Below are positions 11,303-62,413 of a stretch of DNA of 64,000 bases, in pieces. This DNA comes from Cytobacillus oceanisediminis (lineage in GTDB: Bacteria > Bacillota > Bacilli > Bacillales > Cytobacillaceae), in NCBI RefSeq assembly GCF_004366035.1, contig NZ_SOEE01000004.1, positions 196,007 through 260,006 on the forward strand, in the 5' to 3' direction. The position numbers and the translations under genes were made by a program. How positions within the stretch are numbered: the stretch's first letter is position 1; the number at the start of each line of letters is the position of its first letter. Under the pieces are notes generated by a model. It made no database searches. It was not told the origin of the DNA and saw only the letters and a program-made list of their open reading frames with translations.

Positions 11303-11486
11303 CTGTCTAGCTCCAGGCGCCATCGGCACGAGGTCATAAACCAATCCGTCCAAAAGGTTTAAGAACAACCTTTCAGCCGGCTCGTCTTATGCTTGAGGCT
11401 CGCAGGATGCGGGTCATGCAGACGTTGCCACAGGACGTGGCGGTTTTAGTCTGCGTTCCTTTATAAGCCGGCGCCTTCCGCTTTTC
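11303..11486. repeat. Dispersed Bacillus intergenic repeat (CTGTCTAGCTCCAGGCGCC type), single copy here
   Basis: A 184-bp GC-richer block in an AT-rich gap. It opens with CTGTCTAGCTCCAGGCGCC and closes with GGCGCCTTCCGCTTTTC, so both ends carry GGCGCC. Inside is a hairpin AAAGGTT/AACCTTT (about 11354-11374) and a GCCACAGGACGTGGC hairpin (about 11428-11442). I recognise the end sequences as a family found in many copies between genes of Bacillus sensu lato. No transposase is encoded, so it is a non-autonomous or RNA-structured element of unknown function. Confidence 0.75.
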
Positions 11487-14445: not shown

Positions 14446-14523
14446 GAGCAAACATATAAATCTCCATTTAATAAATGGCTTTTGTCGAATTGTTGCATAA
14501 TGCGGACTAACCAAGTTGTCCAC

Positions 14524-14717
14524 TGAGTTGATTGGAGCGGAAGGTACGAGTTCCTCGAAAATGCTACTGCATTTTCTTCGTGCGGTGTTTGTTCGAGGAA
14601 GCACATTATGTCCTGCGGGAGTAGCGTACCAGGGGAGACCCCGCAGACACAGCGGTCGAGGAGACTTCCTGCATCCCCGCTGGTTCGCCTTAGTGCCTGC
14701 AGCGGATGTCAACGGGC
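14524..14717 (+). repeat. Dispersed GTTGAT/ATCAAC repeat, copy A (longest, 194 bp)
   Basis: Begins TGAGTTGATTGGAGCGGA and ends GTCAACGGGC, giving imperfect terminal inverted repeats (GTTGA/TCAAC). Internal palindromes include CTGCGGG/CCCCGCAG around the element centre and AATGC/GCATT near the left end. Related sequence recurs at 35178, 39468 and 60245 in the same orientation. It lies in the 454-bp gap between the yloB terminator and yloC; no gene is supported there. The ends match a repeat I know from many Bacillus genomes. Confidence 0.85.
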
Positions 14718-14845
14718 GAGGTTATAAGCTAGAACAACATCTATTAGTAAAAGCCCTATACATAGACTGCACAGGCATCATGGCGCTAACTGAAAGTAAT
14801 AGTGCTTTTTATAAGCTGTGCTTTTCCCAAAAGGAAGTGTGAGAA

Positions 14846-33102: not shown

Positions 33103-35151
33103 GTGAATCCAAATTATAATCAGTCTGTTACAGCTGTTAAAGGCATCGGAGAGGAAACAGCAGTATCACTTGCTGAAATGAACATAAACACTGTAAAAGA
33201 TTTGCTTGAATATTTTCCGTATAGATATGAGGATTACAGACTCAAGGACCTGGAAGAGATCAAGCATGATGAAAGAGTAACTGTGGAAGGAAAGGTTCAC
33301 AGTGAACCTTCACTCGCCTATTATGGAAGGAAACGTTCCAGGCTGACTCTGAGAGTTCTTGTAGGCAGATATCTGATACAAGTGGTCATGTTTAATCAGC
33401 CATATTTAAAGAACAAAATTACTTTGAACGAAACTGTTACAGTGACAGGCAAATGGGACCAGCACCGCCAGATCATAACAGCCAATGAATTAAAAATAGG
33501 AAGTGCCTCCAATAACAAGGATTTTGAGCCGGTTTACGGTGTCAAAGGAAATATCACTGTCAAGGGAATCAGACGTTTTATAAAACTGGCCTTTTCACAG
33601 TATGGGAATGAGATATCAGAAACTTTGCCTGAAAAATATCTTTTGCAATATAGGCTTTTGAATAGGCGAGATGCTATGAGATCGCTTCATTTTCCTGCCG
33701 ATGATCAGGAACTTAAACAGGGAAGACGGCGCTTTGTTTATGAAGAATTCTTCTATTTTCAATTAAAAATGCAGGCACTAAGAAAGATTGAAAGAGAGCA
33801 GTCTAAAGGAATTGCGCAACCTTATGATCTTTCGAGGCTGATGGAGTTTATAGACTCCCTTCCGTTTGCCTTAACCAGTGCCCAGAAAAGGGTAGTTAAT
33901 GAGATTCTGTCTGATATGAAATCGCCTTATCGGATGAACAGGCTATTACAGGGGGATGTTGGTTCCGGCAAAACGGCTGTTGCGGCAATCGCCCTATATG
34001 CCAGCAGGACAGCAGAATTCCAGGGAGCTTTAATGGTTCCGACCGAAATCCTTGCAGAGCAGCATGCGGAATCTTTAAAGACGATGCTTGAGCCATTTGG
34101 CTTGCGATGTGAACTCCTAACAAGCTCTGTCAAAGGAAAGCGCAGAAGAGAAATTCTTCAGCATTTAAAGGATGGAGAAATTGATGTTCTTATAGGCACA
34201 CATGCACTTATCCAGGAAGAAGTGGAATTTAATAAACTGGGACTTGTTATTACTGATGAACAGCATAGATTTGGTGTCGGACAGCGGCGCGTCCTCAGGG
34301 AAAAAGGCGAGAGTCCGGATGTTCTGTTTATGACTGCCACGCCAATCCCGAGGACATTGGCCATTACTGTTTTTGGGGAAATGGATGTTTCCATCATAGA
34401 TGAAATGCCGGCAGGGCGAAAAGCGATTGAAACTTATTGGGCAAAACCTGAAATGCTTGATAGAGTACTTGGTTTTATGGAAAAGGAGCTTTCAGCAGGC
34501 CAGCAGGTATATGTGATCTGTCCCCTAATTGAGGAGTCTGACAAACTGGATGTTCAAAACGCTATAGATGTCCATGCAACCCTGATGCATCATTTTCATG
34601 GCCGCTATGATGTCGGGCTCATGCATGGGAGGCTTCATCCAGATGAGAAAGAAAATGTAATGAAGACTTTTAGCCGAAATGAAACTCAAGTTCTTGTTTC
34701 TACTACAGTTGTCGAGGTGGGTGTAAATGTCCCAAATGCAACGATGATGGTGATCTATGATGCCGAGCGGTTTGGACTTGCACAGCTGCACCAATTAAGG
34801 GGCAGGGTAGGAAGAGGAGATAAACAATCTTATTGTGTTCTTTTAGCTGACCCCAAATCGGAAGTTGGAAAAGAACGCATGAAAATCATGACGGAAACCA
34901 ATGACGGATTTGCCCTAAGTGAAAAGGACCTTGAGCTGAGGGGCCCTGGGGACTTTTTCGGTAAAAAACAAAGCGGGCTTCCGGAATTTAAAGTCGCCGA
35001 TATGGTCCATGATTACCGCGCTCTCGAAACCGCCAGAAACGATGCAGCTGCTCTTGTTGAATCCCATGAATTCTGGCATTCAGATGAGTACCTGCCTTTG
35101 AGAAATTATTTAAAGGAAACAGGAGTGCTGGAAGGGGAAAAACTGGACTAA
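33103..35151 (+). CDS. recG: ATP-dependent DNA helicase RecG
   Basis: Fork-reversal and branch-migration helicase for recombination and repair. 682 residues, same as B. subtilis. An N-terminal wedge/OB domain contains GKVHSEPSLAYYGRKRSRL. Walker A is GDVGSGKTA (about 284-292), DEQH is in ITDEQHRFGVGQ (near 386), and the C-terminal TRG motif region is in LRGPGDFFGKKQSG. The start is GTG 33103, chosen because the product aligns with B. subtilis RecG from VKGIG onward and no other in-frame start lies upstream. It has no good SD (see findings). Confidence 0.95.
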   Translation: MNPNYNQSVTAVKGIGEETAVSLAEMNINTVKDLLEYFPYRYEDYRLKDLEEIKHDERVTVEGKVHSEPSLAYYGRKRSRLTLRVLVGRYLIQVVMFNQPYLKNKITLNETVTVTGKWDQHRQIITANELKIGSASNNKDFEPVYGVKGNITVKGIRRFIKLAFSQYGNEISETLPEKYLLQYRLLNRRDAMRSLHFPADDQELKQGRRRFVYEEFFYFQLKMQALRKIEREQSKGIAQPYDLSRLMEFIDSLPFALTSAQKRVVNEILSDMKSPYRMNRLLQGDVGSGKTAVAAIALYASRTAEFQGALMVPTEILAEQHAESLKTMLEPFGLRCELLTSSVKGKRRREILQHLKDGEIDVLIGTHALIQEEVEFNKLGLVITDEQHRFGVGQRRVLREKGESPDVLFMTATPIPRTLAITVFGEMDVSIIDEMPAGRKAIETYWAKPEMLDRVLGFMEKELSAGQQVYVICPLIEESDKLDVQNAIDVHATLMHHFHGRYDVGLMHGRLHPDEKENVMKTFSRNETQVLVSTTVVEVGVNVPNATMMVIYDAERFGLAQLHQLRGRVGRGDKQSYCVLLADPKSEVGKERMKIMTETNDGFALSEKDLELRGPGDFFGKKQSGLPEFKVADMVHDYRALETARNDAAALVESHEFWHSDEYLPLRNYLKETGVLEGEKLD

Positions 35152-35177
35152 AGGATCGAAGCATCAATATCCCACGC

Positions 35178-35353
35178 TGAGTTGATTGGAGTGGAGAGAG
35201 CTTGATCCTTGCAAATGCTTTCGCATTTCCTTCGTGCGGTGTTGATTCAAGGGAGATGATTCAATGTTCTGCGTGAGACCCCGCAGGCGGCGCTGAGGAA
35301 CTCTGTTCCTCACAGCGGAGAGAGGAGGGCCTGCAGAGGAAATCAGCGGCCAG
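35178..35353 (+). repeat. Dispersed GTTGAT/ATCAAC repeat, copy B (about 176 bp)
   Basis: Starts TGAGTTGATTGGAG and ends near GAAATCAGCGGCC. It shares the AATGCTTTCGCATT hairpin, CTTCGTGCGGTGTT and GAGACCCCGCAG blocks with copy A at 14524, but the right end has diverged (ATCAGC in place of ATCAAC). It sits between the recG stop and the recG terminator, so it is transcribed as part of the recG 3' UTR. Confidence 0.85.
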
Positions 35354-35387
35354 AGTATGCAGGCTAGACAAATATTCAATCACACTT

Positions 35388-35431
35388 AAAGCAGATTGCA
35401 GAAAAGTTCTTTCTTGCAATCTGCTTTTTTT
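35388..35431 (+). terminator. Intrinsic terminator of recG
   Basis: Thirteen-base stem (AAAGCAGATTGCA with its complement) around a 14-base loop, followed by seven Ts. The 3' arm supplies the likely -35 of the fapR promoter. Confidence 0.92.
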
Positions 35432-39467: not shown

Positions 39468-39596
39468 TGAGTTGACTGGATCGGAAGGTGCGAGATCCTC
39501 GAAAAGGCTGCCGCATTTTCTTCGTGTGGCGTTGTTTGAGGAAGCTCCCGGCTGCCCCGCAGGATAGCTTTAGTACCTGCAGCGAAAATCAACGGG
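39468..39596 (+). repeat. Dispersed GTTGAT/ATCAAC repeat, copy C (129 bp)
   Basis: Starts TGAGTTGACTGGATCGGA and ends AAAATCAACGGGC. It keeps the left-end hairpin blocks (CTCGAAAAGGCTGCCGCA, then CTTCGTG) and the CCTGCAGCG right end of copy A but lacks the middle third. It sits between acpP and rnc, downstream of the acpP terminator. Confidence 0.85.
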
Positions 39597-39680
39597 CTTG
39601 GTTAAAAAACTAAAACATCAATATTTTTGAAATGTCCCTAATAATAAAAAGAATATTAATATTAGCAAGGTGGATGCATT

Positions 39681-60183: not shown

Positions 60184-60244
60184 ACAATCTAAAAAATCCT
60201 GCTGTTTGAACTTTATTGTCCTCTGTTAAAACTGTTTCATCTGC

Positions 60245-60343
60245 TGAGTTGATTGGAGCGGAGGGCATTTGATCCTCGATAATGCTGCCGCATTACCCTC
60301 ACTTCCCGCGAATAGCAAGTGATCCGTGCTGAAATCAACGGGC
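60245..60343 (+). repeat. Dispersed GTTGAT/ATCAAC repeat, copy D (shortest, 99 bp)
   Basis: Starts TGAGTTGATTGGAGCGGA, contains GATCCTCGATAATGCTGCCG and ends GAAATCAACGGGC. It keeps both termini of copy A but has lost most of the interior. It lies in the 339-bp khpA-ylqD gap after the terminator; no gene is seen there. Confidence 0.87.
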
Positions 60344-60408
60344 AGAATATATAAGTAACACAGCATTTCACGAGAAAAGTTAAAATATAGACATCGCCAA
60401 CTAAGAAT

Positions 60409-62313: not shown

Positions 62314-62413
62314 TGTGACTTAGGCTGAACTTGTTCAGTTTGCGTCTGATAAAGATGTTCCGCTGCAAACATATAGGTTGTGCAAGAGCGTCTGCTGAGA
62401 GGAGTTGAAAACG
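62314..62413 (+). promoter_or_regulatory. Likely L19 ribosomal-protein leader
   Basis: About 100 nt of structured leader between the promoter and the rplS ATG, with CTGAACTTGTTCAG hairpin near 62332-62345 and ending GAGAGGAG. Firmicute rplS genes are known to carry an autoregulatory L19 leader at this position. Assignment rests on position and hairpins, not on a covariance search. Confidence 0.6.

Follow-up and report, generated by a model that had tools for sequence, protein, structure and literature searches.

The window, a 64,000-nt stretch of Cytobacillus oceanisediminis DNA, carries four copies of one repeat family in the gaps between genes, and the question they raise is whether such sequences are mobile elements, folded RNAs or something of both. 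A preliminary description, made from the letters of the window, had offered either a MITE-like element or a folded RNA family, with four copies in one orientation; their positions were confirmed in the window, all on the plus strand. That their resemblance is not due to chance was borne out by searching the bacterium's own genome (5.84 Mb, 61 contigs) with copy A: at least 42 segments matched (40 of 52 first-look candidates scored), the best of the others with an E value of 1.9e-43. The number of segments exceeds that of copies, at least two pairs of segments being halves of single copies. On contig C1, all 18 of the 18 segments matching copy A lie on the minus strand.

Extent of the window copies and empty sites

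The sequence TGAGTTGA...CAACGGGC, initially taken for the end of the element, is internal. Similarity continues for about 45 bp beyond it at both sides, as far as inverted repeats, and the flanking sequences are also similar between copies. The following features were placed in the window:

14477..14755, plus strand: whole element A, inverted repeat to inverted repeat (about 280 bp), ends set by comparison with young copies
14477..14495, plus strand: left terminal inverted repeat of copy A, GGCTTTTGTCGAATTGTTG, decayed
14738..14755, minus strand: right terminal inverted repeat of copy A, reading outward as GGCTTTTACTAATAGATG, decayed
14524..14717, plus strand: core of copy A, long form, containing a module of about 62 nt
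35151..35389, plus strand: insertion containing copy B, outer ends unrecognisable
35178..35351, plus strand: core of copy B, middle partly missing
39468..39597, plus strand: core of copy C, at a site also filled in genome G003 (L058)
60197..60381, plus strand: insertion containing copy D
60245..60343, plus strand: core of copy D, middle mostly missing

Comparison with G003, a complete relative whose flanking stretches at the compared sites are 87-95% identical to the window, revealed the empty sites expected of a mobile element for copies A, B and D. The window has 289 bp (14468-14756) at site A where G003 has 14 bp, 239 bp at site B where it has 16 bp, and 185 bp at site D where it has none. 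Neither of the two outcomes named beforehand as counting against the preliminary reading, a lack of further copies in the genome or of empty sites in relatives, was obtained.

The stepwise, progressive shortening of interiors read from the four copies is too simple a picture. The module of about 62 nt lies between GAGA and TCCTGCGGG; in L017 and L019 it is absent while the middle is kept, whereas copy C shows the opposite. Copy C is common to the window and G003, yet its interior is the module without the middle in the former and the short canonical form in the latter, and the copies are therefore block mosaics rather than a loss series. It would appear that an interior can be remodelled in place, through deletion and perhaps gene conversion. 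L012 and L048 form an apparent second shared site, judged from their flanks.

Transposon ends and target duplications

The inverted-repeat ends of the whole unit begin GGCT(G/C)TTTTCG. In young copies of G003 the true ends can be seen as GGCTGTTTTCGCAAAGTTTGTTG and CAACAATTTATACGAAAAGAGCC, some 45 bp from the core on its left and right respectively, with direct 8-mers outside them such as TAAACAAA (L091), TAAATAAA (L087) and TTTTCTAA (L094). At the best end pair, 59 of 226 copies have an AT-rich target duplication matching at 8/8 bases, as against 7 of 226 in a null that paired the flanks of different copies; the duplications are T-rich at their start and A-rich at their end. Together with the inverted repeats and the empty sites for A, B and D, these duplications bear out the term MITE-like, and the repeats are almost certainly copies of a MITE, that is, of a gene-less non-autonomous element.

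The same core is found with two or more kinds of transposon end. Outside the genus it is often found between GGCTCTGTTAAAG and GTTTAACAGAGCC, which lie closer to it (-36/+19) and are likewise bounded by 8-bp duplications (e.g. L109, L131 and L112). The end sequences of the family's elements are GGCT(G/C)TTTTCG and GGCTCTGTTAAA; both ends of one type, with at least 7/8 duplication bases, occur in 30 (type I) and 23 (type II) of the 226 copies; in roughly half of them ends of neither type can be recognised. Type-I ends are swapped left for right in L176 and L152. Long and short cores each occur with either kind of end in genome G019, the former in 12 of 13 elements with type-II ends (one partial) and the latter in eight of nine with type-I ends (one long).

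Several other arrangements of ends were seen. Facing type-II ends separated by about 90-100 bp, which leaves no room for a core, occur at G059:C6:60935-61026 and G039:C9:79688-79791 and are possible core-less mini-MITEs. A lone end, GGCTGTTTTCGTAAACATTGTTG, lies at G000:C9:22652, G006:C4:4149567 and G011:C1:3188542 with no listed core match adjoining, perhaps as one shared old remnant. In Bacillus sp. CH30_1T (L238:3931-4480), a 526-bp composite consists, by eye, of type-I ends around a normal core plus an apparent inverted type-II-like unit.

Search for a partner transposase

Scans for pairs of these ends found no autonomous partner sharing them. Two candidates were rejected by eye: the 526-bp composite of L238 has no transposase-like frame, and in G039 (L261) a 3.3-kb interval between two ends contains apparent host genes. 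The ISL3 domain (PF01610) was sought in three sets of genomes (six, then 36 from the genus and 199 from the order), and none of the loci scanned for ends carried those of the MITE. GGnTCT-type ends with perfect 8-bp AT-rich duplications were found in 5 of 30 ISL3 loci of the order, and likewise in L102. GGnTCT-like ends with an 8-bp duplication, a loose criterion for ISL3 elements, are also present in the MITE, and ISL3-like ends fit best, although beyond the first bases the ends of the examined ISL3 loci differ from its own. Membership of ISL3 is not claimed, because 10 of 12 genomes surveyed with the short core have no ISL3 match; copy-rich genomes mostly have no PF01610 match either. The IS6/IS240 family makes 8-bp duplications and has GG-starting ends as the MITE does, but its domain (PF13610) matched in 9 of 34 genomes, mostly not the copy-rich ones, and gave no fitting partner. 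In G003, an ISL3 transposase remnant lies beside a recombinase-like frame (L100, G003:C1:232749-236183), and near it a sequence weakly resembles the right end of the MITE (five differences).

A folded core

Covariation was analysed in an alignment, by sequence only, of 48 short cores from many genera: L017 and 47 of a pool of 69 cores (118-136 nt, pairwise similarity no higher than 0.93), hand-picked for spread before any structure was drawn. RNAalifold gave a nested hairpin of 25 pairs (-35.8 kcal/mol), and with a terminal stem added there are 32 pairs, in which 96.2% of 1530 cells are paired; slid controls pair 38-52% of cells. Changes on both sides occur in 18 pairs, compared with 8.4 in shuffles, and doubly changed cells number 113, compared with 28.3, none of 500 shuffles matching any observed measure. 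The check by RNA folding with covariance that had been proposed for this repeat thus gave a positive answer, and it is very likely that the long imperfect hairpin of the core has been kept by selection. The long-form alignment from the bacterium's own genome alone is weak (16 pairs, -0.29 kcal/mol), the clear signal being confined to the cross-genus alignment of short forms.

The folded RNA family of the preliminary description is accordingly upheld as to a conserved fold, but covariation does not show that the core acts as RNA. There are 32 G-U cells and 7 A-C cells (one pair, U-G in 46 of 48 sequences, omitted; the p-value of 7e-5 is nominal because cells are not independent of ancestry), and this wobble excess identifies the plus strand as the pairing strand. 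RNA folds of the plus strand have z-scores of -3.1 to -5.7 and DNA folding energies are similar on both strands; by folding energy neither RNA nor DNA is favoured as the acting form. Rfam gave no match overlapping the four window copies at the gathering threshold, or the cores of five loci at E values up to 1. Elsewhere in the window, a Bacillaceae-1 RNA (RF01690) was matched at 11399-11465 on the minus strand (80.7 bits) and a Ribosomal protein L19 leader (RF00556) at 62352-62394 on the plus strand, barely over its gathering score.

MITE interiors are usually regarded as filler. This one probably does something, because about 128 nt of it keep their structure across many genera and with different ends. 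We consider it quite probable that the repeats are MITEs moved in trans whose selected core serves the persistence of the element. A transposase acting in trans would recognise the GGCT(G/C)TTTTCG ends and duplicate 8 bp of AT-rich target; it would most likely be a DDE transposase with ISL3-like ends that has been lost from many hosts. The core would be a module helping such elements to persist, either by aiding fork-linked transposition through folding of its single-stranded DNA in the lagging-strand template, or by folding in read-through RNA and lessening the harm of insertions. Between single-stranded DNA and RNA as the acting form, the chances seem about even. It is conceivable, if doubtful, that the hairpin core is itself the selected gene-free module, with compensatory changes across Bacillales, and has been captured by different ends for fork-linked movement or host tolerance.

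Orientation of the copies and possible roles of the core

Replichores of genomes G001 and G003 were set by GC skew, which places the G003 origin at about 180 kb. Counted from an origin at base 1, 58 of 66 G003 copies were co-oriented with replication, and the skew origin moved two copies from against to with. G001 contributes 60 copies from 72 pattern matches (two sites left out, others below the profile cut); four G003 copies near the terminus and two G001 copies were set aside. In the two genomes together, 109 of 120 copies point with replication, compared with 861 of the 1069 genes lying in the stretches examined (one-sided p 0.0016). By context (119 copies), co-oriented and opposed copies number 79:2 between leading tandem genes, 3:3 between lagging tandem genes, 13:4 in convergent gaps and 13:2 in divergent gaps. 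At G001:C1, about 1.22-1.27 Mb, GC skew is near zero within a replichore that is clearly leading, and an opposed copy lies there (1226280), perhaps in a local inversion or recent import.

The shared orientation at the ends of transcription units, described for the window copies, holds more widely in that the upstream gene is co-directional for 99 of 119 copies, which lie a median of 85 nt past its stop, but in the genus replication is followed as well. This position, the wobble excess of the plus strand and the z-scores of its RNA folds would all suit a core acting as RNA, in hairpins near 3' ends, in leaders or as a small RNA, that is spread by transposition and kept where the plus strand is transcribed. 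Against such a role, replication is followed in 26 of 32 convergent and divergent gaps taken together (p 0.00027), where transcription has no net direction, and no Rfam match overlaps the core; we hold it only tentatively.

A second account, which we regard as rather doubtful, has the core as a single-stranded-DNA device, its exposed plus strand folding on the lagging template and joining the ends for fork-linked transposition. Deduced from geometry, the plus strand of a co-oriented copy is the lagging-strand template, so that the pairing strand is exposed at the fork. This exposure fits a fork-linked step, and a co-directional transcript fits the plus strand equally. Orientation follows replication in other, fork-linked transposons (Tn7 by TnsE, IS200/IS605 and others), according to PMC5371812; the present elements resemble these in that respect and differ in being gene-less and in a bias that varies between genomes. 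The likeness of DNA folding energies on the two strands counts against such a device, as does the lack of bias in some genomes. Type-II copies of G040 show none, with 19 of 40 pointing with replication and 14 of 28 for matches of at least 80 bp (tallied by hand from lists, then recounted), which speaks against the core as sole determinant of orientation. In G019, the recent type-I burst is divided 4:5, a sample of type-II copies 11:2 and both together 15:7, the last being a sample because 11 copies were taken as top matches. In G035 (origin by skew at 3.7-4.2 Mb), 13 of 14 assignable copies among the matches listed point with replication, one having been set aside (hand tally), and in the bacterium's own genome the strand of 29 among the 30 best matches is that expected from local GC skew, a measure in which gene strand is reflected too. 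The replication bias belongs to some genomes and is not general.

The young copies of G001 and G003, those whose ends and duplications are intact, are divided 34:5, not above the gene bias (p 0.20), and the others 75:6. Near-identical copies are divided 29:9 and the rest 95:9 (p 0.024), whereas another cut gave p 0.44 and division by duplication state p 0.33; an age trend in orientation, nominally significant at one cut of several, is suggestive only. Alignment in the genus would arise by insertion bias, by loss of wrongly oriented copies or by both.

It is improbable that the repeats are plain MITEs with an inert filler, whose covariation would come from shared ancestry and a palindromic origin. 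Copies do decay freely, their interiors vary, and kinship among sequences alone can beat shuffles. Double changes nevertheless recur at many pairs and in several pair types (columns 12/130, 20/122, 55/97 and 56/96) and are absent from slid controls, and the same core is intact with different ends. An IS200/IS605-, REP- or group-IIC-intron-like element with a strand or terminator preference would suit the alignment with replication and the frequent T-runs immediately on the upstream side (65 of 126 copies have T5 in the 70 nt preceding the left end, and 37 of 126 have it downstream) but is very unlikely in view of the inverted-repeat ends and 8-bp duplications, since IS200/IS605, REP/RAYT and group-IIC introns are not known to make target duplications, nor the first two to have inverted-repeat ends.

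Relation to known elements and distribution

The preferred reading, a MITE with a selected core, agrees with other bacterial MITEs in short, gene-less units with inverted repeats, target duplications and many intergenic copies, and differs from them in a structure-conserved core that spans families and different ends, with no partner found. ISL3 elements share the GGnTCT-type ends and 8-bp duplications but not the end sequence past the first bases. ERIC sequences of enterobacteria are also intergenic imperfect palindromes of similar length, although from another phylum and of other sequence. Dispersed stem-loop repeats are known in bacilli as bcr1 of the Bacillus cereus group and Bhal-1 and Bhal-2 of B. 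halodurans; set against their descriptions only, these differ from the core in their printed sizes (167, 74 and 76 nt; PMC2267715). No name for the repeat family was found in open-licence PubMed Central, where the one listed paper containing words from the core sequence was unrelated. As far as that literature shows, a structure-conserved core common to different ends and a genome-dependent alignment with replication are new.

The family occupies many intergenic regions and has no Rfam model. Copies of very different age exist, and the young and old ones form a natural series for distinguishing insertion from selection as the origin of replication-aligned orientation, while the function of the core is approachable in tractable bacilli.

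Among the matches listed, the long core is present in 50 of 61 genomes, the bacterium's own included (34 of the 36 genomes in the genus, and 16 of 25 from elsewhere), 13 candidates per genome having been scored in most. Of 12 genomes from other genera, picked for an earlier long-core match, 11 were matched by the short core. No match to the repeat was found in phages, and of the plasmid records that matched (15 and 16) none covered 80% of the query. A pattern scan of named genomes found at least 120 matching stretches, those listed belonging to Neobacillus, Cytobacillus, Mesobacillus, Metabacillus, Rossellomorea, Lysinibacillus, Sporosarcina, Fictibacillus, Ureibacillus, Alkalihalophilus and other genera. 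Records titled Pseudomonas sp. ISL-84 (L168, L248 and L257) also carry this bacillus repeat family, and their title or assembly may be wrong.
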